From Acidobacteriota bacterium (lineage in GTDB: Bacteria; Acidobacteriota; Polarisedimenticolia; J045): a stretch of 64,000 nucleotides of DNA. The stretch is taken from NCBI GenBank assembly GCA_030949985.1, contig JAUZRX010000081.1:1-64000 (forward strand). The letters run 5' to 3'. This document shows, one piece after another, positions 1,411 to 64,000 of this stretch. The notes beneath the pieces are model-generated. The model was not told where the DNA came from. It saw nothing but the letters and a program-made list of their open reading frames with translations, and did no database searches. Numbering within the stretch: the stretch's first letter is position 1; each line of letters begins with the position of its first letter. Made by a program: the position numbers and the translations under genes.

Positions 1411-1427
1411 AGCGCGGCGTAGCCCCC

Positions 1428-3446: not shown

Positions 3447-3506
3447 GCGCACATCTCCACGGGAGGTCGGGCCACGCCTCGAGGGCGACGTCACCGCTGA
3501 TTCTCG

Positions 3507-4421: not shown

Positions 4422-4510
4422 CGAACCCCCACCGTGAGGAACCTCCAGGCCAAGGCGCCCGGCTCGGGGCGCGGGAAGAAACGCACGCTATCTCATCTCC
4501 AGGGCCTTAC

Positions 4511-4516
4511 TATACT
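4511..4516 (+). promoter_or_regulatory. Possible -10 element before the HprK-like gene
   Basis: TATACT at 4511-4516 is a good -10 hexamer in otherwise GC-rich sequence, but no clear -35 box is seen 17 bp upstream. A transcript from here would start near 4523, about 40 nt before the proposed start codon at 4563. Confidence 0.35.
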
Positions 4517-4562
4517 GGCGCCGGCCCCTACCCGGCCAGCCCACCTTCCCCGGGAGGTTCCC

Positions 4563-5645
4563 ATCGACCCCCTCGTCCGTCACATCGACATCCTCGGTTC
4601 CCGGGCCCGGATCCTCACCGATTCGGCGGAACTGTGCCGCGTCCTCGAAGCCCGCCTCGGGGCTTTTCTCACATCGGTCGAGGCCGGCGGCCCCACCATC
4701 GAGGTTCGACTGGATCCGCCGCCGGGGCGGATGACCATCGCCTCCCAGCCACTGGACCTGGATCCCGCGGCCCCGCTGGAACAGGCCTTCGGCGTGATCT
4801 TCAGACACCTTCTCGACCGGGTCGGCGACTACCTGCTGCTCCACTCGGCGGCGTTGAGCGCGGGAGGACGGGCCCTGCTGGTGGCCGGGCCCTCGGGGTC
4901 GGGAAAGACCACCCTCGCGATGGCCCTGATCCGGCGCGGCCTGCGGCTGCTGAGCGACGACATGGCGCCGCTGGGCCTGGCCGACGGGCGGATCCATCCT
5001 TTCCACAAGGCCCCCGGAATCCGACCCGGCGCAGCGGCGAAGCTCGCGGGGGGCGCGACGGGCCCCCTCGATCCGGCCGGGCTCCCCCCCGGCACCCTCG
5101 AAGAGAGCCCCATGCCGCTGGGCGCGGTCTTCTTCATCGGGGGAGCGGGCGACGCAGTCGATCCCACGGCCGCCTATTTCTTCGTCCTGACCTTCTCGGG
5201 CCCTCCCACCGAGGAAGAAATCGCGGCTTTCAGCGCACTGCCGGGTGTCCACCTGGCGGCCCGGGAGGGCTGGGAGATCGTCCTGCGGATCGATCCCCGC
5301 GAGAATGCGACCGAGGCCTTCGAGGCCTGCCTGGCCCGTCACGAGGGCCGGCTCCTCGAGTACGGCACCATCGCCTCGGTGGATCGCTCGCAAGGCGACG
5401 CCCCCAGCGCCCAGACGATCCCGCCCAGTCGCGCCCTGGTGCTGCTGGCCCGTGAGGCACAGAACCGGCGTCGGGCCGGCGCCCTCGAGCAAGGTGCCGG
5501 CGGCGATCGTTGGCTCGCCGGCCTGGCCGAAGCGCTCAGGGACACGCCTTGCTGGAGCGTGGCGGCCGGCTCACCGGACCGGACCGCCGCCCTGATCCGC
5601 GAACTCTTCCTGGGCCCGCCCCGCCCCCGCAAGACAGCGGGCTAG
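4563..5645 (+). CDS. HPr kinase/phosphorylase-like P-loop protein
   Basis: The protein has HprK-type kinase features. There is a short N-terminal beta-rich region, then [27 protein letters not shown]-like sequence with the Walker A P-loop GPSGSGKTT, followed by [11 protein letters not shown], the conserved acidic segment after the P-loop in HprK relatives. Such stand-alone proteins are common outside sugar phosphotransferase operons and their targets are mostly unknown. No HPr or PTS gene is visible nearby. The start is unusual: GGGAGG at 4552-4557 is well placed for ATC at 4563, while the nearest in-frame ATG lies near codon 56 and an upstream GTG (4434) precedes the likely promoter. The start is therefore provisional. 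Its stop interlocks with the convergent cold-shock gene in a CTAG. Confidence 0.7.
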
Positions 5646-5848
5646 CCTTCCGCGCGGGAGACGTTCTGGGCCTGCAGGCCCTTGTCCGTTTCGACGACTT
5701 CGAACTCGACGGCCTCGCCTTCCGCAAGGGTCCGGAAACCCTCGCCGGTGATGCTGCTGTAGTGCACGAAGACATCGGGTCCGTCGTCCTGGGAGATGAA
5801 GCCGAAGCCCTTCTCCTCGTTGAACCACTTCACTTTTCCTCTTGCCAT
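5642..5848 (-). CDS. csp: Cold-shock domain protein
   Basis: At 68 residues this is the normal length of a CspA-family protein. It has both RNA-binding motifs, KGFGFI (RNP1) and VFVHY (RNP2), within the five-stranded OB fold. The N terminus, [10 protein letters not shown], is typical. The protein binds single-stranded RNA or DNA and acts as an RNA chaperone in the cytoplasm. It stands alone and converges on the HprK-like gene, sharing the CTAG at 5642-5645. AGAGGA sits just upstream of the ATG as ribosome binding site. Its control cannot be judged from the short upstream region. Confidence 0.97.
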
Positions 5849-6018
5849 GGTCCTCTCACGCTCGGTTTTCCGACCGCCTGCGGAATTCTATCGCCGAACC
5901 GGCCGGCGATGACAGTGGACAAGTATAGAATGGCTTTCGGGCGGTCGGACAGGCCGGAACAGCCCCGGAAGGAGCGCGACCTGGGCTCCCAGGATCATCG
6001 CAGCGGGAGGGAAGCGGA

Positions 6019-7017
6019 ATGACCCAGTGGTACCTGAGTTTCGACGGCAAACAAATCGGCCCCCTCGACGAGGCCGCGGCGCAGGCGCAGGCCCAGGCGC
6101 GTCCCGACGGCCACTGCTGGCGGGAGGGCTTCACCGAGTGGTTGCCCGTCTCCCAGGTCCCCGAACTCGGCGGCCAGGCCTCGCCCCCGGCGCCGCCGGC
6201 CCACCCGCCCCGGTCGAAGGTCGCGGACGAAATCGACTACAAGCTGTTCGGCGAAGACATGCAATTCGTCGAGATCGAACTCGACCCCGGCGAGAGCGCC
6301 GTCGCCGAAGCCGGCGCGATGATGTACAAGGACGCCACGGTGAAAATGGAAACCGTCTTCGGCGACGCCTCCCAGGCCCAGCGAGGCTTCATGGACAAGC
6401 TGGTCGGCGCGGGCAAGAGGCTGCTCACCGGCGAGAGCCTGTTCATGACGGTCTTCACCCACGAGGGGTCGGGCAAGGCCCACTGCGCGTTCGCCGCTCC
6501 CTACCCGGGAACGATCATCCCCGTGTCGCTGCTCGACCACGGCGGCAGGCTGATTTGCCAGAAAGACAGCTTTCTCTGCGCCGCCAAGGGCGTGTCCATC
6601 GGCCTCCACTTCCAGCGCAAGATCCTCACCGGCCTGTTCGGCGGCGAGGGCTTCATCATGCAGAAGCTGGAGGGAGACGGCCTGGCCTTCCTCCATGCGG
6701 GAGGAACAGTGGTCGAGCGCCAACTCGCCCCCGGAGAAACACTGCACGTGGACACGGGCTGCATCGTCGGCATGCAGGAGTCCATCGGCTTCGACATCCA
6801 GCAGGTCGGTGGGATCAAGTCGATGCTCTTTGGAGGCGAGGGCATGTTCTTCGCCACGCTCCAGGGACCGGGCAAGGTGTGGCTGCAATCGCTGCCCTTC
6901 TCCCGCCTGGCGGGCCGCATGCTGGCGGCCGCGCCCCGGGCCGGCGGCAAGCGCCGGGGCGAGGGATCGGTGCTCGGCGGCCTGGGCGACCTGCTCGACG
7001 GCGACGGGAGTTTCTGA
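6019..7017 (+). CDS. AIM24/TIGR00266-family protein with N-terminal GYF_2 domain
   Basis: The 332-residue protein joins two parts. Residues 1-50 ([15 protein letters not shown]...[11 protein letters not shown]) match the GYF_2 (DUF4339) domain, which in many bacteria is attached to membrane or secretion proteins. Residues about 65-300 match the TIGR00266/AIM24 beta-fold, with [20 protein letters not shown] and [14 protein letters not shown]. The biochemical role of the family is not known; yeast AIM24 is linked to mitochondrial membrane organisation. There is no signal peptide, so it is probably cytoplasmic. The ATG has a clear GGGAGGG ribosome binding site. It runs divergently from the cold-shock gene and converges on the S9 peptidase with 1 bp between stops. 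Confidence 0.85.
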
Positions 7018-7018
7018 C

Positions 7019-9442
7019 TCACCCGCCGTCTTCGTCCGGCGCTCCATGAATTTCAAGGGGAATCGCCGGCAGGTCGCTGACCTTGAGCTGCCAGCGATGA
7101 TTCTCCTCGGGAATCTCGAACACCACGCTGACGGGCAGCACCGGGGGCTGGTGCTGTTCGCCGGCCCAGGCCTCGAGAGCACCCCGGCCCCAGAAGAGCA
7201 CGCTCGCACCCTGGACCTCGAGCGGAACACCGATGGGCCGCAGCAGGGCTCCTTTCTCATCCACCAGAACGATGTCGGAACCGCCCCCGGAAGGCACCAG
7301 GCGCAGGAACTCCGGACCTGGCTCCCGGGCCGCGATCTGCAGGGAAATCTCGAGGAAGATCTTGCCTTCCGGAGGGCGGACGCCCGCGTACTCCTCCCGC
7401 AGACGGTGGCCCAGGGGAAGCAAGGTGACCGGATCTCCCGCCACCTCCCGGCCGGGAACATGGGGCCCCGCCACGCCCAGCACGTGCCGCGCCAGCCACT
7501 CTTCGATCCTCAGCAGGGCGTCGAGACGGTGACGGGGCTCGGCCAGGCCATGGCCTTCCCGGGGATAGAGCACCAGCTCGGTGGTGCGCCCCAGCGCCAC
7601 CAGGGCGCGATGCAGGGCCTTGGCGTTGGTGAAGTAGGTATTGTCGTCCTCCCACCCGTGGAGGATCAGTATCGGGGCCGTGATGCCGTCGGCCCGGTAG
7701 AGGGGTGAGCGCTGCTGGTAGAGTGCGGCCTGCTGCCAGGGAGCCCCGCCCAGGTAGTGTTCCTCCCAGCTCGAGTAGGCGGATGTGGCGTAGTCCTGGG
7801 CCAGGTCGAAAATGCCGGCGATGGAGATCCCGGCCCGGAAGTGATCGGTGGTGGCCAGCATCCAGTTGACCAGGTAACCGCCATAGCTGGCTCCCGCCAC
7901 GGCAGCCCGTTCCAGGTCGACCAGCCCCCGGCGCCGCAACTCCGCCAGGCCCGCTTCGATGTCCCGCACGTCACCGCCGCCCAGGTCTCCACGCAGGGCC
8001 AGGGCGTAATCCTGCCCCCCTCCCGACGACCCCCGGTACTGGGGCAGGAAGACCGCCCAGCCCGCGGCGGCCAGGGCTTCCGCATCGTAGACCCGGTAGG
8101 TATCGACGACCCGCCAATGGGGGCCGCCGTGGAGCCACGTCAGCACGGGAGGAGGAGCCGGGGTCGGCTCGGGGGGCAGCAGCAGCAGGCCCTCGTGATC
8201 GAAACCTTCGCACTGCCACGTGATGCGCTCCCGGCGCGCGCGTTGCCACTTTTCGGCGGGGGCGCCGAGGGCCGTGACGACGCGACACCGCCCGTCGGCC
8301 AGGTCCAGCAGAGCCACCTCGGGAGGCGCGGAGGCCGTTTCCATGACCAGCGCCAGCTTGCGGCAGGCGCGGGCCGCGCTCAGCCCGGAGAGGACCGCGC
8401 CCTCGGGGCCGACCAGTTCGAACCCTCCGTCGGCCGGATCGATGAGCGCCAGCCGGCTGACCATGCCCCAGGCCAGGAGCACCGCCACCCTCCCGTCGGG
8501 CAACGGCAGCATCTCTTCGAGATCTCGATCGAGGTCCCCCAGCAGGGGGCGCGGCGGCTGGTCCCGTCGCGCCAGGTCCCAGGCGAAGAGTTCCTGGCGG
8601 CTGTAGGAGACCTTGGGATCGGCCCAACCCCAGAAGAGCAGGAAGCGGCCGTCGGAGGTGAAACGGGGACCCGATTCGCACCCCCCCCGTCCTCCACTGA
8701 CACGCACGGTATCACCCCGCTCGAGGTCCAGCAGCAGCACTTCCGCCCGGTCCTGGTCCTCGGGTCGCCCCGTGTGATCGGTGGAGTAGGCCAGCAGCCT
8801 GCCGTCCGGAGAGAGATCGAACTCCCCCACCCCCCGCCGCCCGCCGAGCAGACGGCGCGACTCGCCGCCCTCGAGGGGATGACTCCAGATCTCCCAGGTG
8901 GGAATCGCGGCGTGGGCCACCACCGCGTCGTCGTGGACCTCCCGCCGCTGCCGCCGCCAACTGCTCTCCGCCGGGGGGCGGGGCGCCTGCTGCAGGGTCA
9001 CCACCGCCGTGCCGTCGTGGTTCCAGGTGCAGATCTCCACGCCTTCGGGAGCCTGGGTCAGCCGCCGCGCCTCGCCGCCCTCGGCCGGCAAGAGAAAGAC
9101 CTGCCGTTTTTCCCCTCCATCCTCGCGCGCGTCGTCTTCTTCATCCTCGTGGGGTTGAGGCCGGAAAGTGACGAAAGCCAGGTGCCGGCCGTCCGGAGAC
9201 CACCGCGGCTGTCCCGCATCGCTCAATCCCCGGGTCAGTTGCCGGGTCTCCACCGGGATCCCGCCGCCCCCGCTCAAATCGGCGAGATGTATCTGCCAGC
9301 GCTCCTCCCCCTTCTCCCAGTCCACCTCCCCCACGATGAAGGCCACCCGCCGCCCACAGGGAGACAGGCTCGGCTCACCCGGAACCTTGAGACTGATCAG
9401 GTCCCGCGCCGTCACGCGGCGGACTTGCCTGCTTTCGTTCAT
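7019..9442 (-). CDS. S9-family serine peptidase, cytoplasmic, with C-terminal extension
   Basis: The 807-residue protein is an acylaminoacyl-peptidase/prolyl-oligopeptidase relative that would trim oligopeptides. Residues about 15-400 show repeated SPDGR-type blades of a beta-propeller, for example LSPDGRLLAYSTD. The alpha/beta-hydrolase domain has Ser519 in GASYGG, Asp599 or Asp600 in GWEDDNTY, and His631 in REGHGL. No signal peptide is present, so it should act in the cytoplasm. After the catalytic His there are about 175 more residues. The last 130 look like a beta-rich module absent from ordinary S9 enzymes, whose ends usually lie soon after the His helix. The ATG at 9442 is preceded by AGGAGAG at good spacing; the upstream in-frame extension is not needed. 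Confidence 0.9.
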   Translation of the reverse strand: MNESRQVRRVTARDLISLKVPGEPSLSPCGRRVAFIVGEVDWEKGEERWQIHLADLSGGGGIPVETRQLTRGLSDAGQPRWSPDGRHLAFVTFRPQPHEDEEDDAREDGGEKRQVFLLPAEGGEARRLTQAPEGVEICTWNHDGTAVVTLQQAPRPPAESSWRRQRREVHDDAVVAHAAIPTWEIWSHPLEGGESRRLLGGRRGVGEFDLSPDGRLLAYSTDHTGRPEDQDRAEVLLLDLERGDTVRVSGGRGGCESGPRFTSDGRFLLFWGWADPKVSYSRQELFAWDLARRDQPPRPLLGDLDRDLEEMLPLPDGRVAVLLAWGMVSRLALIDPADGGFELVGPEGAVLSGLSAARACRKLALVMETASAPPEVALLDLADGRCRVVTALGAPAEKWQRARRERITWQCEGFDHEGLLLLPPEPTPAPPPVLTWLHGGPHWRVVDTYRVYDAEALAAAGWAVFLPQYRGSSGGGQDYALALRGDLGGGDVRDIEAGLAELRRRGLVDLERAAVAGASYGGYLVNWMLATTDHFRAGISIAGIFDLAQDYATSAYSSWEEHYLGGAPWQQAALYQQRSPLYRADGITAPILILHGWEDDNTYFTNAKALHRALVALGRTTELVLYPREGHGLAEPRHRLDALLRIEEWLARHVLGVAGPHVPGREVAGDPVTLLPLGHRLREEYAGVRPPEGKIFLEISLQIAAREPGPEFLRLVPSGGGSDIVLVDEKGALLRPIGVPLEVQGASVLFWGRGALEAWAGEQHQPPVLPVSVVFEIPEENHRWQLKVSDLPAIPLEIHGAPDEDGG

Positions 9443-9546
9443 GGGACTCTCCTGGCGGCGGCGCATTCTACCGACCCGCCCCCGGCAGCCGCCACTTCCG
9501 CTCAAGCCTTCCAGGCCAGGGTCGATAAGCCCGGTGGGGAAAAACT

Positions 9547-10524
9547 GTGCCTGCCGATGTCGTCAGCCCGCCGAAAGCCTTTTTCTCGATCTCCCTCGAG
9601 ATGATCGAGCCGGGCGAGCTGCTGCCCTGCGACCTGTGGCTCCGGCCGCCCGGCGGCGCACCGGTGCTCTACCGCTCCGCCCGGCTGCCGTTTCTCGAGG
9701 AACATCGCGAGCGACTGGAGCTGTCGGGTGTCGACGTGCTGCACATCTCGTTCGAGGACGCCGAAGCCTGGTCCGACTTCGTGGCGGAGCGGCTCAAGCG
9801 CCGCATCCTCGACCCCCACCGCCCCATCGAGGAGCGGGTCGACGAACTGATCAACAGCTCCCGCACGTTGATGCGCGAGGTCTTCGACGACCCCCGCGCA
9901 CCCGGTGTGCGGCGCACCATCGAGCACCTGGGCGACACCGTCAATCGCCTGATCGCCGAACCCGGCGCCTTCCACAGCGCCGTCCGCCTGATGGAACACG
10001 ACTACTACACCTACACCCACTGTTTCCATGTCTCGGTCTACGCGGTGGGCCTGGGACGAGCAGCGGGCATCGACGACCAGGACTACCTGACGAGCCTCGG
10101 CCAGGGGGGGCTGATTCACGACGTGGGCAAGACGAATCTTCCCGCCGGGCTGATCAACAAGCCGGGACGCCTGAGCGAAAGCGAGTTCCGGCTGATGAAG
10201 ACCCACCCCGAGCAGGGCATTAAGATTCTCGACCAGATGAACTGGCGCGACCCGATCGTGCGGGACGTGACGCTCAGCCATCATGAACGCCTCGACGGCT
10301 CGGGCTATCCCCGGGGCCTGGCGGGAGATTCCATCTCCGTCGCCGCGCGCATCTCGGCGATCTGCGACGCCTTCGACGCGATGACCACGGACCGCTCCTA
10401 CAGCCGCGGCATGAGTTCCCTCGATGCCCTGAAGATCCTCCGTGGCGACCACCGCAACCGCTACGATCAGCGCCTGCTCGAGACCTTCATCCGCATGCTG
10501 CTCGACCCGGAGAAATCATCATGA
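9547..10524 (+). CDS. HD-GYP domain protein (probable cyclic-di-GMP phosphodiesterase)
   Basis: The protein (325 residues) carries a full HD-GYP domain: H191-D192 in GLIHDVGK, HHERLDGSGYP with G253-Y254-P255, and FDAMTTDRSY. HD-GYP enzymes hydrolyse cyclic-di-GMP or related dinucleotides. The first 130 residues form a predicted non-catalytic sensor or PilZ-like region that I cannot name. There is no membrane segment. The start is a GTG at 9547 with GGTGGGG before it. The gene overlaps the next one by ATGA at 10521-10524, so a cyclic-nucleotide-binding protein is made in step with it. It diverges from the S9 peptidase across 104 bp. Confidence 0.92.
   Translation: MPADVVSPPKAFFSISLEMIEPGELLPCDLWLRPPGGAPVLYRSARLPFLEEHRERLELSGVDVLHISFEDAEAWSDFVAERLKRRILDPHRPIEERVDELINSSRTLMREVFDDPRAPGVRRTIEHLGDTVNRLIAEPGAFHSAVRLMEHDYYTYTHCFHVSVYAVGLGRAAGIDDQDYLTSLGQGGLIHDVGKTNLPAGLINKPGRLSESEFRLMKTHPEQGIKILDQMNWRDPIVRDVTLSHHERLDGSGYPRGLAGDSISVAARISAICDAFDAMTTDRSYSRGMSSLDALKILRGDHRNRYDQRLLETFIRMLLDPEKSS

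Positions 10525-42450: not shown

Positions 42451-42454
<4 letters not shown>
41645..42454 (+). CDS. Alpha/beta-hydrolase fold protein
   Basis: Residue numbering starts at the GTG at 41645, with GGAG 5 nt upstream; this start overlaps the previous gene by 7 bp. The 269-residue protein has the core of the fold: [18 protein letters not shown], the nucleophile elbow VGASFGAAV (Ser93), [13 protein letters not shown] (Asp218), and [13 protein letters not shown] (His245). All triad members are present, so it is probably an active esterase or related hydrolase. No signal peptide is visible. The substrate is unknown. The stop codon is interlocked with that of glnS in CTAG (42451-42454). Confidence 0.85.
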
Positions 42455-44163
<1,709 letters not shown>

Positions 44164-44318
44164 GGCCTTTTCGTCCTTTCCCGCAGGTGGCGGCGCGCCA
44201 TTGTGCCCCAGCTTGGCAAGGCGCGACAAGGCAGCCGGCACGTTCGACACCGCCGGGCGGCCGGACTAACCTGTCGCCCCCGGTGGAACCGCCTGACGAC
44301 CGGGGCCAGAGGTGCACG

Positions 44319-45818
44319 ATGACGAATTCCGAGGTCCGGGTCCGGGTGGCGCCCTCTCCCACCGGGGACCCCCACGTGGGCACGGCCTACCAGGCCCTGT
44401 TCAACTACGCCTTCGCCCGCAGCCGGGGCGGCAAGTTCATCCTGCGTATCGAGGACACCGATCGGGCCCGCTCCACGCCTCAGTCCGAAGCGGCGATTCT
44501 CGAGGCCCTGGGCTGGCTGGGGCTGAAGTGGGACGAGGGGCCCGACGTGGGGGGGCCTTACGGACCCTACCGGCAGAGCGAGCGGGCCGAGATCTACCGC
44601 GAACACGTGCAGAGACTGCTGGACGAGGGCCACGCCTATCGCTGCTTTCTCAGCCGGGAAGAGCTGGAGAAGATGCGGGCCGAGCAGCGGGAGAAGGGCC
44701 TGCCGGCGTTCAAGGATCTCGAGGGGCGCGAACGGCCGGAGGAAGAATCCCGCCGCCGCGCGGAGGCCGGCGAGCCCTTCACCGTCCGGATGAAAACGCC
44801 CCTCGACGGCGAGTGTGTCATCGAAGATCTGCTCCACGGCGAGGTGCGCAAGGACTGGGCGTCCATCGACGACCAGATCATCCTCAAGTCGGATGGCTTT
44901 CCCACCTATCACCTGGCCAACGTGGTGGACGACCACCTGATGGGCATCACCCACGTGATCCGGGGCGAGGAGTGGATCAACTCGGTGCCCAAGCACCTCG
45001 AGCTCTACCGCTTCTTCGGCTGGCAGCCGCCGGTGTTCTGCCACCTGCCGCTGCTGCGAAACAACGACAAGAACCGCTCCAAGCTTTCCAAGCGCAAGAA
45101 CCCCACCTCGATCCTCTACTATCGGCGGGCGGGTTTCCTGCCCCAGGCCCTGCTCAATTTTCTCGGCCTGCTGGGCTGGTCGATGCCCGGTGAAGAAGAA
45201 AAGTTCACCCTCGAGGAGATGATCGCCGCCTTCCGCCTGGAAGACATCAACCTCGGCGGCCCGGTCTTCGACGTACAGAAGCTCAAGTGGCTCAACGGCC
45301 GCTACATTCGCGAGGACTACGACGCCGCCGGCCTGCGCCGTGAGCTGGAGAAGTGGGCGATCAACGCCGAGACACTGGAAAAGATCCTGCCCCTGGCCCA
45401 ACCCCGCCTGATGACCCTTTCGGACTGGGGCTACCTGACGGCCTTCTTCTTCGCCGACGAGGTGCCCCTCGACCCCGGGGCGCTCGAGCTCAAGGGCGGC
45501 AGCGCCGAGGACCTGGCGCGCCTGTTCCAACTGGCCGTGTGGAAACTGGAGGCCCTGCGGGACTTCAGCAGCGAAAACCTCGAGGCCCTGTTCTCGGAGC
45601 TGGCCCAAGACACCGGCCTCAAGCTGCGGGATCTGACCCGGCCGTTCTACGTCGCCCTGACGGGGCGCAGCGCCGCCACCCCCCTCTACCAGTCCATGGA
45701 GATCCTCGGCTCGGACATGGTGCGCATGCGCCTGCGCCGGGCCATCGAGGCCCTCGGCGGCCTGTCCGCCAAGAAGCTCAAGGCTCTCGAGAAGGAGTAC
45801 GCCGCGGGGCGCCGGTAG
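44319..45818 (+). CDS. gltX: Glutamyl-tRNA synthetase
   Basis: At 499 residues, this has HIGH motif APSPTGDPHVGTAY, RIEDTD, and the KMSKS equivalent KLSKRKN. Standard bacterial GluRS elements (YRCFLSREEL, LKSDGFPTYHLANVVDD, NFLGLLGWSMP) are in place, with the C-terminal anticodon-binding helices (SMEILGSDMVRMRLRRAI). It charges tRNA-Glu in the cytoplasm. An AGAGG sequence precedes the ATG at 44319. It faces away from glnS, sharing a short regulatory region. The two synthetases are evolutionarily related, so placement together is of interest. Confidence 0.98.
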   Translation: MTNSEVRVRVAPSPTGDPHVGTAYQALFNYAFARSRGGKFILRIEDTDRARSTPQSEAAILEALGWLGLKWDEGPDVGGPYGPYRQSERAEIYREHVQRLLDEGHAYRCFLSREELEKMRAEQREKGLPAFKDLEGRERPEEESRRRAEAGEPFTVRMKTPLDGECVIEDLLHGEVRKDWASIDDQIILKSDGFPTYHLANVVDDHLMGITHVIRGEEWINSVPKHLELYRFFGWQPPVFCHLPLLRNNDKNRSKLSKRKNPTSILYYRRAGFLPQALLNFLGLLGWSMPGEEEKFTLEEMIAAFRLEDINLGGPVFDVQKLKWLNGRYIREDYDAAGLRRELEKWAINAETLEKILPLAQPRLMTLSDWGYLTAFFFADEVPLDPGALELKGGSAEDLARLFQLAVWKLEALRDFSSENLEALFSELAQDTGLKLRDLTRPFYVALTGRSAATPLYQSMEILGSDMVRMRLRRAIEALGGLSAKKLKALEKEYAAGRR

Positions 45819-55499: not shown

Positions 55500-56891
55500 T
55501 CAGGTGCCGCGGCGGGCGACCCGCTGAACCTGGTCGAGGTAGCGCCCCACGTCTTCCCGGGGGCGTATTTCCTGGGCCCGCTCGAGCAACGGTACGGCTT
55601 CCGCGTAGCGCGACTGCCCCACCAGGACCTGGGCGTGCCGCACCCGCGCCACGGCTTCGTAGTCTTCCAGCGCTTCCGCCCGCTCGTAGTAGAGGATGGC
55701 GCGCTGCGGCTGGCCGGCCCGGGCGAAGTGATTGCCCAGCAGGATCAGCGCATCGCCGTCGAGGGGATCGAGGTCGACGATCTCCTCGAGCACGCGCACC
55801 ACCCGCTCGCCCTTCTCGCCCGACGCCATCGCCACCCGGGCCTGCACCTTGAGCACTTCCCGGCGGGAGGCGTCGTCCAGTCGACCCTCGTAGACCCGCG
55901 AGATCTCTTCGAGCAGGGAGCCGGCCTGGGCGAACGCGCCCCGCTGCGCGAGAATCCGGCACCAGCGGAGCGGTACCGAAACATCCTGCTCCGGGTCCAG
56001 TTCGAGGGCCCGGCGATAAGCCCCCGCCGCCAGATCCCAGAGTTCCTGGTTGACGTAGATATCTCCCAGGATGCGCTCGCTGTCGACCGTGGCCTTCCCC
56101 ATCCGGCTGACGATCTCGTAGTTCTCCGCCGCTCGGAGCGGTTTGCCGAGCCCGATCCAGGCATTGGCCTGCATCAGCCAGAAGTCCGCCCGGTCCGGGG
56201 AACGTTCGATCAACTCCCGGCAGAGGCTCACCGCCTCGGCGTACTTTTCCTGGCGCAGCACGCTGTGGGTCAGCCCGATCTTCCAGTCCTCGGTGGTCGG
56301 ATCGAGCAGCATGGCGGTGCGGTAGGCCGACTCGGCGGCGATGTGCCGGCCCGTCTGGGAGTAGGCGTAGCCGAGCAGGCCATAGGTCACGCCGTCCGCG
56401 GCACCGAGCTCGATCGCGCGGCTCAGGGGCTCCAGGGCCTCGGCGAACTTCCCCAGCCGAACGTAGATCTGTCCGAGTTGACGGTGCGCCCTGCGAAAAC
56501 TCGGAAACTTGACGATGGCCGCCGAATAGCTCGCGGCCGCCGGCTCGAGCTCACCGTCCTGGTAGTGAAGATTGCCCAGGAGAAAATCGAAGACCGCGCT
56601 GCTCTCCGGCGTGATCACCGCTTCCACCGCCGCCTTGGCCGCGGCGGTGTCGTCCCCCGAGACCAGGGGGAGCAGCTCCTGCAGCGTGGCCTGGTCGGTG
56701 GCGCTCAGACGCGGCTCGATCTCGGCGTTGACGCCGTAGCTTCCCGTGAAACTGCGACGCCAGGATTCGCTGTCCCAGATGCCCAGATCGCCGACGCTCC
56801 CGCCGGCCTCCCCGGCGACAGCGAGACCCGACGCCCCGACCGACGCGACCGTCAGGGCCAGCAGCGGCAACATGGCAAATCGTCTGAACAT
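55500..56891 (-). CDS. Periplasmic TPR protein of the TonB operon
   Basis: The protein has about 463 residues, with a signal peptide (about 1-27) and then at least eight TPR-like repeats: AAASYSAAIVKFPSFRRAH, ALEPLSRAIELGAADG, AESAYRTAMLLDPTTE, AGAYRRALELDPEQD, AILYYERAEALEDYE. Such repeat proteins bind partners, and one is present in TonB2-type operons of Vibrio and Shewanella, where it stabilises TonB. The gene follows tonB closely. ATG 56891 with GAGG before it is preferred; an upstream ATG (56915) overlaps the tonB stop by ATGA. It is last in the operon. Confidence 0.88.
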   Translation of the reverse strand: MFRRFAMLPLLALTVASVGASGLAVAGEAGGSVGDLGIWDSESWRRSFTGSYGVNAEIEPRLSATDQATLQELLPLVSGDDTAAAKAAVEAVITPESSAVFDFLLGNLHYQDGELEPAAASYSAAIVKFPSFRRAHRQLGQIYVRLGKFAEALEPLSRAIELGAADGVTYGLLGYAYSQTGRHIAAESAYRTAMLLDPTTEDWKIGLTHSVLRQEKYAEAVSLCRELIERSPDRADFWLMQANAWIGLGKPLRAAENYEIVSRMGKATVDSERILGDIYVNQELWDLAAGAYRRALELDPEQDVSVPLRWCRILAQRGAFAQAGSLLEEISRVYEGRLDDASRREVLKVQARVAMASGEKGERVVRVLEEIVDLDPLDGDALILLGNHFARAGQPQRAILYYERAEALEDYEAVARVRHAQVLVGQSRYAEAVPLLERAQEIRPREDVGRYLDQVQRVARRGT

Positions 56892-56911
56892 GAGTAAGCC
56901 TCGGCGCGCCG

Positions 56912-57589
56912 TCATCCGGCGTTGAAGCGGATCGGGATGCGCAACTTGAAGGGCACCGCGCGTCCATTGCGGGTACCGGGTTCGAATTTCCACTGTTTGA
57001 CGGCCTCGAGGGCCGGCTTCTCGAAGAGCGGGTCGGAAGACTTCTCGACCTTGGGATTCTTCACTTTCCCGTTCTGATCGACGAGGAAGACCACGAAGAC
57101 CGTGCCGGTCTTGCCCTTCTTCCGCAGTTCCTGGGGGTAGCGCGGCATACGCTGGAAGATGAGGGACGGCTTCTGATCCAGGTCGTCCAGCGAGAAGACC
57201 TCGTCGATCGCCTCTTCACGCCGCCCCGCCGTCAGCTGGGCCGCGATATCCACGACAAAGTCGCCGAAGGCCCCCCCCACCGGATTCGGGTTGAGGGCCA
57301 GTTCGAGCTGGGCCAGGTCGAGGGGCGCCGCCTGCTCCTCGAGCTGCGGCGGCGGCTCCTCCTCGGGCTCCTCTTCCACTTTCTCCTCCACGGGCGGCGG
57401 CGGTGGCGGCGGGTTGAAGTCGGCCACATCCACCGGCTCGAGCACCAGGTCCGCCGGTGCGGGCGACCCGATGGCCTGCATCAACGGCAGCAGCACGAAG
57501 AGCCCGAGGGTACAGGCCAGCGCGCCGACCACCACCAGCGCTTTCTGCAACATCCAGAGCAGGGGATGGATCTTCGGCTCGAGGGTCAT
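56912..57589 (-). CDS. tonB: Energy transducer TonB
   Basis: The 225-residue protein has an N-terminal membrane anchor (residues about 15-35), a proline-rich stretch (FNPPPPPPPVEEKVEEEPEEE) that spans the periplasm, and the TonB C-terminal domain (residues about 145-225: RMPRYPQELRKKGKTGTVFV, ALEAVKQWKFEPGTRNGRAV). The YP motif and final KLRIPIRF-type strand are typical. It carries energy from ExbB/ExbD to the receptor encoded upstream. The linker between anchor and C domain is short in comparison with E. coli TonB. The start is ATG 57589. Its gene follows exbD by 11 bp. Confidence 0.95.
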   Translation of the reverse strand: MTLEPKIHPLLWMLQKALVVVGALACTLGLFVLLPLMQAIGSPAPADLVLEPVDVADFNPPPPPPPVEEKVEEEPEEEPPPQLEEQAAPLDLAQLELALNPNPVGGAFGDFVVDIAAQLTAGRREEAIDEVFSLDDLDQKPSLIFQRMPRYPQELRKKGKTGTVFVVFLVDQNGKVKNPKVEKSSDPLFEKPALEAVKQWKFEPGTRNGRAVPFKLRIPIRFNAG

Positions 57590-57600
57590 CGCGTCTCTCC

Positions 57601-58014
57601 CTAGTCGACTCGCCGCTGTGTGGCGATGCTGACCTTCTGCGCCCCGGCCATCTTGGCCTCGTCGATGACCCGCACCATCAGCGAGGCCCGCGCCTGGCCG
57701 TCGGCCTGCACGATCACCGGCACCTCTTCCTTCTGCAGCATCCGCTTGACCAGCGGCTGGACGCCGGCCACGCCGATCTGCCGGCCGCCGTAGACCACCT
57801 GCCCCTCACCGGTCACCGCCAGCAGGACGGAGTTCTTCTCGAGCTGCACCGAGGACGCGGCCTGGGGTTTGTCCACTTCGACTCCCGTCTCGTCGATGAA
57901 GGTGGTGGTCACGATGAAGAAGATCAGCAGAATGAACACGCAGTCGATCAGGGGCGACATGTCGATCCCCGTCGACTCTTCGTCTCCACTCCCGAGCTTG
58001 CGAAAACGGCTCAT
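57601..58014 (-). CDS. exbD: Biopolymer transport protein ExbD
   Basis: The 137-residue protein has a single helix near the N terminus (residues about 18-40) with the conserved Asp in GIDMSPLIDCVFILLIFFIVTT, aligned with ExbD Asp25. It is followed by a periplasmic beta-rich domain (VLLAVTGEGQVVYGGRQ, PVIVQADGQARASLMVRVIDEAK). Its gene overlaps the short exbB by ATGA (58011-58014). It is the proton-channel partner of ExbB in the TonB system. It conforms well to the family. Confidence 0.95.
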   Translation of the reverse strand: MSRFRKLGSGDEESTGIDMSPLIDCVFILLIFFIVTTTFIDETGVEVDKPQAASSVQLEKNSVLLAVTGEGQVVYGGRQIGVAGVQPLVKRMLQKEEVPVIVQADGQARASLMVRVIDEAKMAGAQKVSIATQRRVD

Positions 58015-58646
58015 AGCGCACTCTCCTTCCCCGCGGATCGGCCCCCGCGCTGCCGGTGGAAGACATGCTGCACACAGACGGTCTCGACACGGGCGAGAAA
58101 GGCCTCGTAACGCTCCTTCTCCCGGCCCAGGTGGTACTGGAGAAAGAGGCCCGGCAACGCGATCACGAGCCCGGTCTCGGTGGTGATCAGCGCTTCCGAG
58201 ATCCCCCCGGCGATCATGCTCATCGTCTTCTCTCCGCCCGATCCCGAGGCGAGGGCGGCGAAGGTGGTCAGCATGCCGGTCACCGTGCCCAGCAGTCCCA
58301 ACAGGGGGGCTGAACTCACGCAGCGCTTCATGAAACGCAAATCTCGCTCGAAGGGCGCGAGCCGCGACAGCTGCACCTCTCCGAAGCGATCGAGGAGGTC
58401 TTCGATACTCGTCGCGGCCAGCGCGAAGTCCATCACTTCACCCAGGCGCCCCCGCCGCTTTTCCGGCCGGGTGATCCACTCGCGCCAGACCCGTTCGGAG
58501 ACCCGCGGAACACCCCGGGACTTGAGGGAAATCCAGATGTGAATGCCGAGAGCGAACAGCACCAGGGCGTTGGCCGCCAGGGGGATCATCCACCAGCCCC
58601 CGGCGCGCCAGATACCCCATGCCTGCTCGAACAGCCCCTGGAACAT
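58011..58646 (-). CDS. exbB: Biopolymer transport protein ExbB (short, MotA/TolQ family)
   Basis: The 211-residue protein has three helices, and the MotA/TolQ/ExbB core SSAPLLGLLGTVTGMLTTFAAL followed by ISEALITTETGLVIALPG. It follows the long ExbB-type gene (58648-60090) with only 1 bp between stop and start and overlaps exbD. It resembles the ExbB2 subunit in Vibrio TonB2 systems. GGGATG near residue 1 has the start MFQGLFEQAW. An upstream in-frame extension belongs to other sequence. Confidence 0.93.
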   Translation of the reverse strand: MFQGLFEQAWGIWRAGGWWMIPLAANALVLFALGIHIWISLKSRGVPRVSERVWREWITRPEKRRGRLGEVMDFALAATSIEDLLDRFGEVQLSRLAPFERDLRFMKRCVSSAPLLGLLGTVTGMLTTFAALASGSGGEKTMSMIAGGISEALITTETGLVIALPGLFLQYHLGREKERYEAFLARVETVCVQHVFHRQRGGRSAGKESAL

Positions 58647-58647
58647 C

Positions 58648-60090
58648 TCAACCCTGCTCGGCGGCCGCCGCGTCCCGCCCGGCCGAAGCGAGCGAAAGAC
58701 GATTGACGAACGAGATCGCCGTCTTTTCCATGCCATCGACGAAACGCCGGGCGCGGCGGGACAGGTAGGCGTGGAACAGCAGCGAGGGGATGGCCACGAT
58801 CAGCCCGAACTCGGTGGTGATCAGCGCCTCGGAAATGCCGGAGGAGAGGGTCTTCGCGTCTCCCGTGCCGTAGACGGTGATCAGCTTGAAAGTGTTGATG
58901 ATGCCGGTGACCGTGCCGAGGAGGCCGAGCAGGGGCGCCGCCGCGGCGCAGATCGCGATGAACCAGAGAAAGCGCTGGAGGCGCAGCCGGGTATCCAGCA
59001 TCTTTTCGTACATCACCTCCTCGACCAGTTCCCGCGGCTCCGCGGCGTGCTCGACTCCCACCCGCAGCATCTCTCCCGTGGGGCCGGGGATCGCCTCGAG
59101 CCTGGCCATGGCGCCGTCCAGGTCCCGCCGGCGGACCGCGTCGAGCAGGCTGTTGACCCGTTTCTTCGACGGGTTGCGGATACGGGCCAACTGGAACCAC
59201 TTGAGCAGGGCGACGAGCAGCGCGGCCGCGGCCATCAGCAGCATCGGCACCATCACCGGGCCGCCCTTTTCGATGTGCTCGAGTGGCGTATCGCCGGCGG
59301 CCTTCATCTTGTCGGCGTTGCCCAGGGTCGGATCGAGCGGCAGCAGTCCCTCGCCCGTCTCCACCACCTTCGCGGCCTCCGCCTGCAGCACGGGATCGCC
59401 GAAGATCGTCATCGACGGTTCGAGAGAGCCGAGTTGCTGTTCGGCGAGGCCCGCCGCGGCGCCATCCCGGGTGCGGAAGAGGGCGATCGGTCCCAGCAGC
59501 GCGAAATCGACGTCCTCGACCGTGCCGTCGGCGGCGACGGCACGACCCGCAAATCGGGTGCCGGCGAGCGCCTCCTCCAGGCGGGTGAGGCGGGCCTCGA
59601 CCAGCTCGAGCTGCCGGGCGTAAACCTGGTCCGCGGCAAGCTGCTGGTTCTCGGGGGCGTTGCGGGCCGCCTCGATCAGGGGGCGGAAGCGCTGCAGCTC
59701 GGTGATGTGCACCCGCGTCTCGAAATTACGGACGTACTCGTCGAGCAGGTTCCCCAGGTAGGTCTCCTCGGCGTGGCGGGCTTCGAGCCGGGCCTGGCGG
59801 TTGCTCAACTCCAGCCGACGCTTGTCCACCGCACGGACCCGCTCGTCGAGGCGGGCCTCGCGGGAGGCGAGCTGCGACTCGAGGCTTCTGAGCCGTCGGC
59901 TGAGCGGCAGCTTCTCCGCGGCGATGCGCGCCTGCAACTCGGAGAGTTGCCGAAGACTGGCCGCGAGGTCTTTTTCCACCGATGCGCGGGTTCCGGCGAA
60001 TTCCGATTGCCCCACCGCCCATCCGGCGCAGGGCGCCAGCAGCAGGGCCGAGGCCAGCAGCGGCCTCCAGCGAAGACGGATCCTGCTCAT
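58648..60090 (-). CDS. Long MotA/TolQ/ExbB protein with coiled-coil N terminus (TtpC-like)
   Basis: The 480-residue protein has a signal peptide (about 1-25), a coiled-coil region (residues about 35-110: LRQLSELQARIAAEKLPLSRRL, RLEARHAEETYL) and a beta-rich segment. Three membrane helices follow, with the ExbB core APLLGLLGTVTGIINTFKLI and ISEALITTEFGLIVAIPS at the C terminus. This layout equals TtpC of Vibrio TonB2 operons, which has an ExbB domain with a periplasmic N-terminal extension. It overlaps the DUF3450 gene by ATGA (60087-60090). It would form a second proton channel component in the complex. Confidence 0.9.
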   Translation of the reverse strand: MSRIRLRWRPLLASALLLAPCAGWAVGQSEFAGTRASVEKDLAASLRQLSELQARIAAEKLPLSRRLRSLESQLASREARLDERVRAVDKRRLELSNRQARLEARHAEETYLGNLLDEYVRNFETRVHITELQRFRPLIEAARNAPENQQLAADQVYARQLELVEARLTRLEEALAGTRFAGRAVAADGTVEDVDFALLGPIALFRTRDGAAAGLAEQQLGSLEPSMTIFGDPVLQAEAAKVVETGEGLLPLDPTLGNADKMKAAGDTPLEHIEKGGPVMVPMLLMAAAALLVALLKWFQLARIRNPSKKRVNSLLDAVRRRDLDGAMARLEAIPGPTGEMLRVGVEHAAEPRELVEEVMYEKMLDTRLRLQRFLWFIAICAAAAPLLGLLGTVTGIINTFKLITVYGTGDAKTLSSGISEALITTEFGLIVAIPSLLFHAYLSRRARRFVDGMEKTAISFVNRLSLASAGRDAAAAEQG

Positions 60091-60884
60091 GGCCTTTCCT
60101 CGTCTACGATGGTCACCGGCAACGGCACGTAGGCCGGCGCCTCTTCGTTTTCGAGAATCTTCACCAGGCGAGTGACCTGCGGTGCGATCGGGTCGGCGGC
60201 GATCCAGCGCCACCCATCGGGGCCGCTCCGGCCGAGCCCCGCGTGACTGCCGTCGCGCGTGACGTACCACGCCTGCCCGAGACCCGCGTACACCGTCTGT
60301 ACCTCCGCTCGCTTGCCGGATGGCAGTTCCCGGATCTCACTGACGAGGTTGATCTCCCGCTGGAACTTGTTCACTTCGTTCAGGATTCCGATCACGTTCT
60401 GGTAGCGCTCGGCCGGGGAGAGTTCCCGCGCACCGCCGGGCCGGGGCAGCCGGCGGCTGAGTACCGAAACCTTTTCCCGCAGGGGATCGGGCAGCCGGTC
60501 GAGCAGGGCGCGTGTGGCCTTTTCGAGGGCCGGGATCCGCCGGGCGAGGGTCACCGAAGCCCGGTCGAGTTCCCGCTCCCTGGCGGCGAGTTCCCTTTCC
60601 TTCCCGGCCACCTCCGCCAGGTCCTTCTCGGCCTCCTCGATTTTCTGATCGAGGGCGGCGATCTGCCGCTCGAGAATGGAGATCCGCTCGGTGAGCACCT
60701 CCTTGCCGAGCTTCCAGTCGCGTTTCTCCCGGGCGATGACCTGCTGGGTCTCGACCCACTTGGCCAGCCGCGCCCGGGTCTCTTCGAGGTCGGTGGTCCG
60801 GCCGCCGTCCGCCGGGGGAGCGGCGGCGGCCGCGGGAACCAGGGCCGCGGTGACCAGGATGGCGATGCGATCACGGATATTCAT
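60087..60884 (-). CDS. DUF3450 family periplasmic coiled-coil protein
   Basis: The 265-residue protein has a signal peptide (about 1-22) then a strongly coiled-coil region (residues about 30-125: ARLAKWVETQQVIAREKRDWKLGKEVL-like, ISILERQIAALDQKIEEAEKD). A C-terminal domain includes RYQNVIGILNEVNKFQREINLVSEIREL and VQTVYAGLGQAWYVTRDGSHAG. These are the features of DUF3450, always found next to TtpC/ExbB genes in TonB2 operons. It probably links the channel to partners in the periplasm. The start is ATG 60884, with AGGAG 13 nt upstream; a GTG at 60914 is possible. Confidence 0.9.
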   Translation of the reverse strand: MNIRDRIAILVTAALVPAAAAAPPADGGRTTDLEETRARLAKWVETQQVIAREKRDWKLGKEVLTERISILERQIAALDQKIEEAEKDLAEVAGKERELAARERELDRASVTLARRIPALEKATRALLDRLPDPLREKVSVLSRRLPRPGGARELSPAERYQNVIGILNEVNKFQREINLVSEIRELPSGKRAEVQTVYAGLGQAWYVTRDGSHAGLGRSGPDGWRWIAADPIAPQVTRLVKILENEEAPAYVPLPVTIVDEERP

Positions 60885-60994
60885 GGCTTCATTGTTCTCC
60901 TGCGCTTGTGACACCCGGGTTGCCCCGGGGTGACAAAGTTCTTAACCGGCCATGGCCGCGCTCCCCGCTCGCGGGACGCCGACCGTCGACCCCG

Positions 60995-63900
60995 TCACCA
61001 GCTCCAGCGCAAGGCGATCTTGTAGCGCCTGGCGGTGGGTACGAGGCTCTTGATGGCCTCGGCTCCCTCCGGGGTGCGGTAGACCACCTGCTTGTCGTCG
61101 GCGAGCAGATTCTTGGCGCTCAAGCTCAAGCTGGTGACGGCGCCCAGCTTCTGGCTGACCTTGACGTTGAGGGACGAGAACGGCGCCTCGAGGGCGTCCG
61201 GAACGCCTCCGGTCTCCACGTCACCGACCGCCGCCCCGGCTCGAAGCCGTTCGCCGACCCGGTTGTAGAAGACGCTGGCGCTGAGCCCCGTGTCCTCGTT
61301 GTCGTAGCTGAGATTGAAATTGGCGATCGACGCCGGTTGCCCGGCGAGGGCCCGGCGGTCCCGGCCGAGGGCGAAGGCCGCCAGCGCTTCCTGCTCGAAG
61401 CCGGGAATATCGACCTCGGAATCGAGCCACGTGTAATTCGCGCTGACGGTGAAATGCCTCAGCCGGCGGCCGAACCGATCCAGCGGCGCCCTGGCCTCGG
61501 CCTCCACGCCGAGAATCCTTCCGGTATCGAAATTCACCGGCTGGGTGAAACTCCGTCCGGCGGCTCCGAAGTTGAGATATTCGATGGGCTTGTCGATCTT
61601 CTTCCGGAAAACACTCAGGGCGAGCACCTCTCCCGGCCGGCGGAACCACTCCCAGCGCAGGTCCCAGTTGGTGATTTTCGACATCTCCAGCCGGGGATTG
61701 CCCACGAACTCGTCACCGAAGAGGAACTCCTCGGTGGCGACGGGAGCCAGTTCACGGAGGGTCGGACGGGCCAGGGTGCGGGACCAGGAGGCGCGCACCT
61801 GCATGCCGTCACGGAGTTCCCAGATCAGCCCCACCGAGGGGAGGACGGATCGGTCGTCGATCCGCGCCACACCTTCTTCCTCGGGCACCTCCACGATGCC
61901 GCGATCGCCGGACTCGGGCCTGACCTCGATGATCTCCACCCGCCCGGCCGGCCCGGCGGGAATCACCCCCAGTTCCGTCCTCTCCCAGCGGCCGCCGGCA
62001 ACCAGCTTGAGCGACGGCAACAGCGGCCATTCGGCCATCAGGTAGAACGCGCCGATCCGTTGCCTGCCGACGTAGTCCACGTCCTGGTTGAGCGGCGTGA
62101 GGGTCCACAGGAGCTGGTTGTCCGCCACGTGGGGCGAGTCGACGTTGGGCGCCAGTCCGATGCGATCGGCGTCGAGAAAGACATCGCTCCAGAGCGCTGC
62201 GGGATCTTCGGTGATCCAACTGAAGCGGCTCCTGTTTTCGATACGCTCCGGGTTGCGGCAACACTGCCGGCTGGGAAAGTCGTAGAAGAACGATTCCTGC
62301 TCGTAGGTCCGGTCGTCGTCTTCGAAGTAGAAGCCACCCTTGAGCCTGGCCTCCCGGTCGCCGAGGACCCGCAGCGGGAGTTCGGCGTTGGCGGCGTAGA
62401 CCATGCCGGTTTCTTCGATCTCCCGGAAGATTCTGCGTGTGCTGGACGAAGGCGAGACGCCCGACGTGCGAAATTGCGCGACTCCGAAACCACGCTCGGT
62501 GAAGTAGGTGAAGAGATTGCGGAAGAAGCGGACATCGGGTTCTTTCTGCCGGGTCAGGTTCGACGCCACGCTCCAGTCCAGGTGGAGGCCGTCGCCCACG
62601 GGCCAACCTTCGAAATCATGCTTGCCTTGCAGTTGAAGCGACGCGACCGTGCGCTCGACGTAGCGCAGAGATTGATTCTGGATGACGTTGATCTGCTCGA
62701 CCGAACTCCCGTCGTCGCTGACCTGGAAGCGGGCCTCGTCGCTGGCCGACTGGTTGCCGACGAAGCGCAACGTGAACTCGTGGTCGTCGTTGGGCTGGAA
62801 GACCAGCGCCCCCAGCCCGCCGATCAGCAATTCGTCGGTGCCCTTGCTGTCGGTACGCGGACGGAGCAGGGTGATCGCCCCGTCGCTGCCGCTGACACCG
62901 ACCTTGTTGTTGATGCCATCGTCGTAGTAATGGTACTTGTGCGAATAACTCAACGCGCCGAGCACGCCGATCCGGCCCCAAGCCCCGATGGAGTACTTGT
63001 TGCCGGAGACCAGGGAGAAGCTTCCGTTGGCCGGAGCCGTCTTGCGGCTGGTTCCCATCACCGGCACGAACATCCGCGTCAGCTTGTCGTAGGCCAACGC
63101 CGCCTCGAGATCCGCGGGCAGCACCCGCGGGCGATAGCGGATCGCGCTGAAGGACTTGGTCAGTTCCACCCGGCCCACATCGGGCATCGAGCGGTCGGAC
63201 CCGCCGAAACCGGTGGGATCGACTCCGCCGCCGCGGTAGGTGAGGAACTCGCCGTTGCCCGTGGCCAGGTCGTCGTACTCCACCGCCACCGAGGTGGAGA
63301 GAAGGTAGTTCTCGGGGATCGACTTGGTGCGGACGTCGACGCCTCCACCAGTGAAATCCCCCTGCAGATCGGGGGTGAAGGTCTTGGTCACGGTGATGCT
63401 CTCCACCGTGCCGGTGGGGAAGACGTCGAGCTGAACCGCCCGTTTGCGGGGGTCGGCGCTGGGCACCCGGATCCCGTTGAGCGTGGTGCCGGTATAGCGG
63501 TCACTCAGTCCCCGGACGGTGGCGTACTTGCCGTCGACCACCGAGGCTCCGACCACCATCTTGATCGCCCCCGCGACATCGGAGGCATCGGCCTTCTTGA
63601 ACAGCTCGGAGGAGATCGCGTCCTGCAGGGTGACCGCCGAAGCGCGGATCTCGAGCAAATCGACCTCCGTGCCGGAGAGGAAGTCGTCTCCCGTGACCAC
63701 CAGCTCGTCCATCTCCAGCACGGCGATCGAAAGCTCCACCCGCAACTCGCTCAGCCGGCCGGGCGACACCGCCACGTCCGCGATGACCCGGCGCTGATAG
63801 CCGGCCTTCGAACAAACGACCGTGTACTTCCCCGGCGGGAGCTGCTCGAGCACGAAGTTGCCGGCATCCGATGTCAGCGCCGTGTGCCGGGTTCCGGCGA

Positions 63901-64000
63901 TCTCCACCCTCACGCCGGCCAGGGGAACATCGAAGTCGGCATCGTAGACCAGGCCCCGAATACCACCGTTGGACGCGCCCTGTCCGCTGGACAGGCCCAC
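60995..64000 (-). CDS. TonB-dependent receptor (N terminus beyond the window)
   Basis: At least 1001 residues are visible, running off the right edge. Numbering from the edge, residues about 12-95 form a carboxypeptidase-regulatory-like domain (GLVYDADFDVPLAGVRVEI, GNFVLEQLPPGKYTVV). The plug domain follows (ATVRGLSDRYTGTTLNGIRVP), then the barrel, ending in the aromatic terminus KIALRWSW. The order (CarboxypepD_reg, plug, barrel) is common in receptors for glycans or peptides. Substrate is unknown. The gene is 110 bp upstream of the DUF3450 gene, so it is the first member of the operon and likely the receptor the energy system serves. Confidence 0.95.
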   Translation of the reverse strand: MGLSSGQGASNGGIRGLVYDADFDVPLAGVRVEIAGTRHTALTSDAGNFVLEQLPPGKYTVVCSKAGYQRRVIADVAVSPGRLSELRVELSIAVLEMDELVVTGDDFLSGTEVDLLEIRASAVTLQDAISSELFKKADASDVAGAIKMVVGASVVDGKYATVRGLSDRYTGTTLNGIRVPSADPRKRAVQLDVFPTGTVESITVTKTFTPDLQGDFTGGGVDVRTKSIPENYLLSTSVAVEYDDLATGNGEFLTYRGGGVDPTGFGGSDRSMPDVGRVELTKSFSAIRYRPRVLPADLEAALAYDKLTRMFVPVMGTSRKTAPANGSFSLVSGNKYSIGAWGRIGVLGALSYSHKYHYYDDGINNKVGVSGSDGAITLLRPRTDSKGTDELLIGGLGALVFQPNDDHEFTLRFVGNQSASDEARFQVSDDGSSVEQINVIQNQSLRYVERTVASLQLQGKHDFEGWPVGDGLHLDWSVASNLTRQKEPDVRFFRNLFTYFTERGFGVAQFRTSGVSPSSSTRRIFREIEETGMVYAANAELPLRVLGDREARLKGGFYFEDDDRTYEQESFFYDFPSRQCCRNPERIENRSRFSWITEDPAALWSDVFLDADRIGLAPNVDSPHVADNQLLWTLTPLNQDVDYVGRQRIGAFYLMAEWPLLPSLKLVAGGRWERTELGVIPAGPAGRVEIIEVRPESGDRGIVEVPEEEGVARIDDRSVLPSVGLIWELRDGMQVRASWSRTLARPTLRELAPVATEEFLFGDEFVGNPRLEMSKITNWDLRWEWFRRPGEVLALSVFRKKIDKPIEYLNFGAAGRSFTQPVNFDTGRILGVEAEARAPLDRFGRRLRHFTVSANYTWLDSEVDIPGFEQEALAAFALGRDRRALAGQPASIANFNLSYDNEDTGLSASVFYNRVGERLRAGAAVGDVETGGVPDALEAPFSSLNVKVSQKLGAVTSLSLSAKNLLADDKQVVYRTPEGAEAIKSLVPTARRYKIALRWSW

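Follow-up and report, generated by a model that had tools for sequence, protein, structure and literature searches.

A planctomycete TonB2-type operon with its own receptor and an ElpS-like secreted partner: a candidate phosphate-starvation uptake module

What would a TonB2-type energiser with a receptor of its own import in a planctomycete, and why would it keep a private motor? The question is raised by an operon at the end of the window, by which we mean the whole stretch of 64,000 nucleotides analysed, from a genome of 3.7 Mb. TonB2-type systems with extra proteins are known mainly from Vibrio iron uptake, and the roles of TtpB, TtpC and TtpD are unsettled. The 2010 description of ElpS reportedly gave it no molecular function. 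Both puzzles come together in this one operon and therefore become testable, as the questions of whether phosphorus is imported and why the motor is private. Our favoured answer, which we consider fairly probable, is a module for uptake across the outer membrane under phosphate starvation, equipped with a TonB motor of its own.

Layout and spread of the operon

All seven genes of the window operon lie on the - strand (55500-64060), in reading frames of the contig from which internal stops are absent. A first-pass annotation had named them as receptor, DUF3450, long ExbB, short ExbB, ExbD, TonB and TPR genes, and the Pfam search supports every assignment, DUF3450, MotA_ExbB, TonB_C and the receptor included. 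The coordinates likewise bear out the tight packing described then, with ATGA overlaps and gaps of 1-110 bp; down the operon the spacing is 110 bp, ATGA overlap (-4), 1 bp, ATGA overlap (-4), 11 bp and 38 bp. Calling the operon complete was right in that the seven genes are real, but the unit runs on upstream with a TPR gene and the gene for a secreted protein, here called BHX, both of which were missed, the receptor gene being cut by the window end. The features are:

55500..56873, - strand: TPR protein at the TtpD position (457 aa; signal-peptide-like start; Pfam TPRs)
56912..57589, - strand: TonB (225 aa; Pfam TonB_C, 1e-23)
57601..58014, - strand: ExbD (137 aa; Pfam ExbD, 4.5e-27)
58011..58646, - strand: short ExbB (211 aa; MotA_ExbB, 1.3e-21)
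58648..60090, - strand: long ExbB, or TtpC (480 aa; MotA_ExbB, 6.6e-30; DUF3450, 5e-4)
60087..60884, - strand: DUF3450 protein, or TtpB (265 aa from ATG; Pfam DUF3450, 1.3e-24)
60995..64000 in the window, GTG start at 64060 outside it, - strand: TonB-dependent receptor (1021 aa in total)
64091-65287 of the contig, past the window and upstream of the receptor, - strand: second TPR protein, in the conserved unit
65398-66172 of the contig, cut by the contig end, - strand: BHX, C-terminal part, secreted protein

An alternative GTG start at 60914 is also open for the DUF3450/TtpB gene. The receptor consists of CarboxypepD_reg, Plug and TonB_dep_Rec domains (Pfam). In the numbering of locus L004 the receptor lies at 996-4061, the second TPR gene at 4092-5288 and the BHX part at 5399-6172; the contig of the window, C81, ends at 66172, inside BHX. 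Elsewhere in the window, two class I tRNA synthetase genes of Glu/Gln type occupy 42451-45818 as divergent neighbours.

Chance is no plausible source of the arrangement, since further planctomycete genomes, drawn from several families, have the genes in this order. A profile search found DUF3450 in 10 of 396 planctomycete genomes, and a close relative of the window protein occurs in 8 of the 41 genomes of the window's class. For the window's DUF3450 protein the genome collection gave named relatives in Planctomycetota only, which agrees with the non-proteobacterial host proposed earlier. The receptor gene directly precedes DUF3450 in every relative of the window type, and the TPR gene at the TtpD position closes the unit in all complete relatives. 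The receptor may rightly be called dedicated, as first suggested, because the neighbourhood survey found it adjoining the energiser genes in every relative of the type. Six further members of the class share the second TPR gene and BHX; BHX is placed after the last TPR gene, not before the receptor, in L005 and L006. The seven-gene form, with a short ExbB, is confined to the window, L036, L038 and L040. A form without it is present in L005, L006, L037 (cut after ExbD, so that later genes there lie outside the data), L039, L041 and L042, and suggests that an ExbB of the TtpC type can suffice alone.

Transfer of the operon from Vibrio-like bacteria is unsupported: the receptor groups with planctomycete copies, and the DUF3450 score is 87 bits against ~290 bits in two gamma-like planctomycete copies. 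The latter, L034 (G343:C688) and L035 (G379:C207), are gamma-type DUF3450-TtpC-ExbB-ExbD-TonB clusters in planctomycete bins, from which an adjacent BHX/receptor pair is absent. They represent recent transfer or bin contamination, G343 being 7% contaminated.

Motor proteins

The energiser had been described as TonB2/TtpC-type, and the detection of DUF3450 and TtpC-like domains in a gene order that fits the Vibrio plan confirms this. TtpC combines a DUF3450-like periplasmic N-terminal domain with a C-terminal ExbB domain (Pfam, profile match), and DUF3450 has previously been reported as the N-terminal domain of such A subunits (PMC12505986). By profile comparison the TtpC N-terminal domain and DUF3450 look homologous; the full profiles match at 8e-10 and the globular part at 1.5e-6, which is not significant in clade subsets. 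The DUF3450 model, of moderate confidence (pLDDT 75), has a ~100-residue helix and a five-stranded domain and gave no match in the PDB. These parts of DUF3450 and TtpC would bridge the periplasm.

The Glu of the third membrane helix (TM3) is missing from the gamma TtpC and short ExbB sequences that we examined, but the two ExbB proteins of the window retain it in the motif SEAL. This motif forms part of SEALITT, whose Glu and Thr, both kept, we take to be E176 and T181 in E. coli numbering. The membrane Asp of ExbD is also kept (SPLIDCVF). The ExbB tree has five robust groups; the order of its deep branches is compatible with both a shared and a separate origin of the two-ExbB arrangement of Planctomycetota and that of gammaproteobacteria.

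BHX, its receptor and their likely cargo

BHX is a large, repeat-rich secreted protein with the family motifs DDGIExFGGTVN and GDDSxDxxxGWxG. It gave no useful Pfam or NCBIfam match, carbohydrate-related and SusD Pfam models included, no PDB relative by profile search and an uninformative AlphaFold model (pLDDT 29); from the look of its sequence and the literature it may be a beta-helix protein. The proteins of Caulobacter, Alteromonas and Sphingomonas have a lipobox, whereas the lipobox Cys is lacking in the complete planctomycete N-termini (L005, L102), and BHX is therefore called ElpS-like and not ElpS. The N-terminal piece in the window genome is probably C86:8303-9142, at a contig end. 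C86 would join C81 within BHX; no sequence overlap joining the two was found.

Assemblies break inside the BHX gene at the ends of C81 and C86 and in the contigs behind L038, L039/L103, L041/L104, L036/L105 and L107. The gene has long internal repeats, of which two or more copies are found in L040, L060 and L061. A second short BHX-like N-terminus in the window genome (L108, G000:C54:1-378; 35 bits, contig end) is perhaps another partial member. In L109, L110, L111 and L122 BHX is followed by a small protein of 141-176 aa with no Pfam match. In L044 (G000:C60) two neighbouring genes, 5544-7613 and 7681-10062, encode response-regulator-like proteins of 689 and 793 aa with TonB_C-type domains, an odd combination.

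BHX and the receptor are obligately paired. Among the 41 genomes of the window's class, strong BHX profile matches occur in 8/8 that bear the operon and 0/33 that do not, and just one of the 33 has weak BHX-like repeats; the chance of this pattern is 1e-8 if genomes are independent, which these, being related by descent, are not. Beyond the class BHX is found in the absence of DUF3450; in all 20 planctomycete loci sampled there, a receptor from the same clade is its immediate neighbour, and such a receptor lies near BHX in 20 of 21 plasmid records, where it is the best receptor match. In the tree, 26 BHX-partner receptors form one clade (SH-aLRT 99), apart from four other receptors of the window genome, and this clade also takes in the receptors of the Sphingomonas and Indioceanicola pairs. 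Among NCBIfam models TIGR01782, not a siderophore family, comes closest to the receptor (8e-68, below cut-off), and the receptor profile had no PDB match at 1e-20. The carboxypeptidase-like N-terminal domain noticed in the first pass is present, but it is a general receptor appendage (excerpted text of PMC6434023) that carries no cargo information, and it is absent from proteobacterial (gamma, alpha) members of the clade.

Phosphorus, rather than the peptides proposed earlier, is the likely cargo because the receptor always accompanies a secreted partner that is produced under phosphate starvation in other bacteria. According to the available sections of PMC2996285, ElpS of Caulobacter is a surface lipoprotein produced under phosphate starvation, its gene lies beside that of receptor CC0171, low-phosphate stalks contain both proteins, and the co-occurrence of elpS and cc0171 was already noted by the authors. 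The same sections report that cc0171 is constitutive and that a change in intracellular phosphate was not detected. They give the order cc0170 (elpS)-cc0171-gsp for Caulobacter and Sphingomonas alaskensis; Sphingomonas and Indioceanicola in our data have BHX-receptor-gspN-gspD-gspE. In Flavobacterium, FII lies beside a receptor in a PhoBR operon and is strongly induced by Pi depletion (PMC8115612, in the part available).

The genomic context points the same way. Alteromonas macleodii pBGP9 (L060) has phoB-phoR-pstS-oxygenase-BHX-receptor-DUF3450-TtpC-ExbB-ExbD-TonB-TPR in one cluster. Among planctomycetes, G082 has phoB-phoR-Porin_O_P-pstS-pstC-pstA-pstB-phoU-BHX, a neighbourhood that rests on an inferred contig join, and in G137 pstS-pstC-pstB-phoU-phoB is divergent from BHX. 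Genes for pst/phoU also occur near BHX in the flanks of L120 and L121, and in L109, L119 and L125 the receptor comes after a gene pair of PhoB/PhoR type. Pst/PhoU genes are found in 4 of 28 loci against ~0.14-0.28 expected, an excess of ~14 to 28 times by rough estimate; the majority of the BHX loci sampled lack any pho/pst gene in the span covered. In the window genome no pst gene was seen on the contigs inspected, and the N-terminal BHX piece on C86, the contig presumed to join C81, has nearby only a divergent PhoB-like regulator that scores below the cut-off of its family. PHO-box-like repeats upstream of BHX were unconvincing (shuffle fractions 0.013 in G046, 0.04 in G247, 0.07 in G071, 0.16 in the window genome, the rest >=0.29).

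For the direction of transport, the cargo, regulation in this bacterium and what each accessory protein does, we infer the following scheme. BHX would bind or process a source of phosphorus at the surface, be it a phosphate ester, a polymer carrying phosphate or bound Pi, and its obligate partner, the receptor, would take up what is captured. TonB, driven by the ExbB/ExbD proton motor, would open the receptor plug and admit the cargo to the periplasm, where the DUF3450/TtpB, TtpC and TPR proteins may assist or steady TonB and phosphatases and PstSCAB would take the cargo over. A more elaborate version, which we offer tentatively and think may well not hold in full, is a nutrient-dedicated TonB machine in which this planctomycete class, and perhaps Alteromonas independently, has joined a widespread, free-standing module of ElpS-like protein and receptor to a private motor of the TonB2 type. 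In the seven-gene form both ExbB proteins would be proton-competent, possibly in a mixed pentamer, with paired DUF3450/TtpC coiled coils bridging the periplasm.

The receptor and motor could instead export BHX or assemble it at the surface. Myxococcus Oar with its Ton system does so for the protease PopC, and CarboxypepD_reg, the domain of the window receptor, is listed among the receptor architectures in the same excerpted source (PMC6434023); the strict one-to-one association of a secreted protein and a receptor is also what a secretor and its substrate might show. We nevertheless regard export as unlikely. Caulobacter ElpS is still surface-located without the T2SS, and deletion of cc0171 left ElpS production on, its localisation in the mutant not being reported in the sections available (PMC2996285). 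Gamma and alpha members of the receptor clade lack the N-terminal domain, and clustering with pst is better explained by uptake.

Uptake of iron-siderophores or haem, as by Vibrio TonB2, would fit an energiser that is that of the Vibrio system (PMC6957404), and one Pseudoalteromonas copy of BHX lies near siderophore genes. It is nonetheless improbable, given that siderophore genes were not noticed near the planctomycete loci, that the window receptor stands apart in the tree from siderophore/haem-like receptors of the same genome and that TIGR01782 is not a siderophore family. TIGR01782, a Xanthomonas-Caulobacter family in which sugar substrates are common, thus lends something to uptake of polysaccharides or oligosaccharides, in which BHX would act at the surface as a carbohydrate-binding or pectin-lyase-like protein. 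The Flavobacterium FI and FII proteins weakly resemble polygalacturonases (PMC8115612, in the part available). We place little weight on a sugar cargo in view of the pst/pho clustering, the failure of BHX to match any Pfam family, carbohydrate-related ones included, and a family search that saw no carbohydrate-active genes in the flanks examined. Peptide uptake, proposed at first from a supposedly peptidase-rich region, is scarcely credible: a scan of 31-50 kb gave only an S8 subtilase and an M48 peptidase (33-41 kb, >14 kb from the operon), these and an MFS transporter that matches POT weakly lie at least 5 kb away with unrelated genes between, flanks differ in relatives, and the N-terminal domain, absent from proteobacterial clade members, says nothing on cargo.

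Comparison with known systems

The proposed uptake of a phosphorus source by BHX, receptor and private motor has partial counterparts in several bacteria. SusCD and PusCD differ in that BHX matches no SusD Pfam model and so does not qualify as a SusD-type lipoprotein partner. As in Myxococcus Oar-PopC, a receptor is encoded with its own ExbB/ExbD/TonB genes, but Oar-PopC exports a protease, and a BHX partner or DUF3450 gene goes unmentioned in the excerpted text (PMC6434023). In Flavobacterium, the TonB-dependent transporter Fjoh_0545, a CarboxypepD_reg_2 receptor, and the FII lipoprotein Fjoh_0546, a secreted pectin-lyase-fold protein, are induced by Pi depletion; unlike in the window, a linked TonB motor is not reported for them in the available part of PMC8115612, and the likeness of FII to BHX is one of description.

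ElpS (CC0170) and CC0171 of Caulobacter are also a secreted or surface protein and a neighbouring TonB-dependent receptor, but they lie beside a T2SS and not a TonB system. The likeness of BHX and its receptor to this pair runs through the Sphingomonas and Indioceanicola homologues in elpS-gsp order, CC0170 and CC0171 being likened by gene order, and the window-side BHX fragment alone overlaps just the C-terminal part of those homologues. The Alteromonas macleodii plasmid shares the order BHX-receptor-DUF3450-TtpC-ExbB-ExbD-TonB-TPR and adds phoBR-pstS alongside; it differs from the window unit in having no second TPR gene and a receptor without the N-terminal domain. Because that receptor sits in a separate subclade, with alphaproteobacterial pairs, the linkage of BHX and receptor to a TonB motor may have arisen twice.

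In Vibrio vulnificus the TonB2 operon reads ttpB (DUF3450)-ttpC-exbB-exbD-tonB-ttpD (TPR); a gene for an outer-membrane receptor heads TonB3 (PMC6957404). As in TonB2 and TonB3, DUF3450 comes first in the window energiser, followed by a long ExbB with a periplasmic domain, short ExbB, ExbD, TonB and, last, TPR, and as in TonB3 a receptor heads the operon. Unlike either, the window unit belongs to a planctomycete, includes BHX and a second TPR gene, and has relatives in a sister form without the short ExbB. The receptor-headed seven-gene order was thus already known from TonB3; what is new is the host and the partners, BHX and the second TPR protein.
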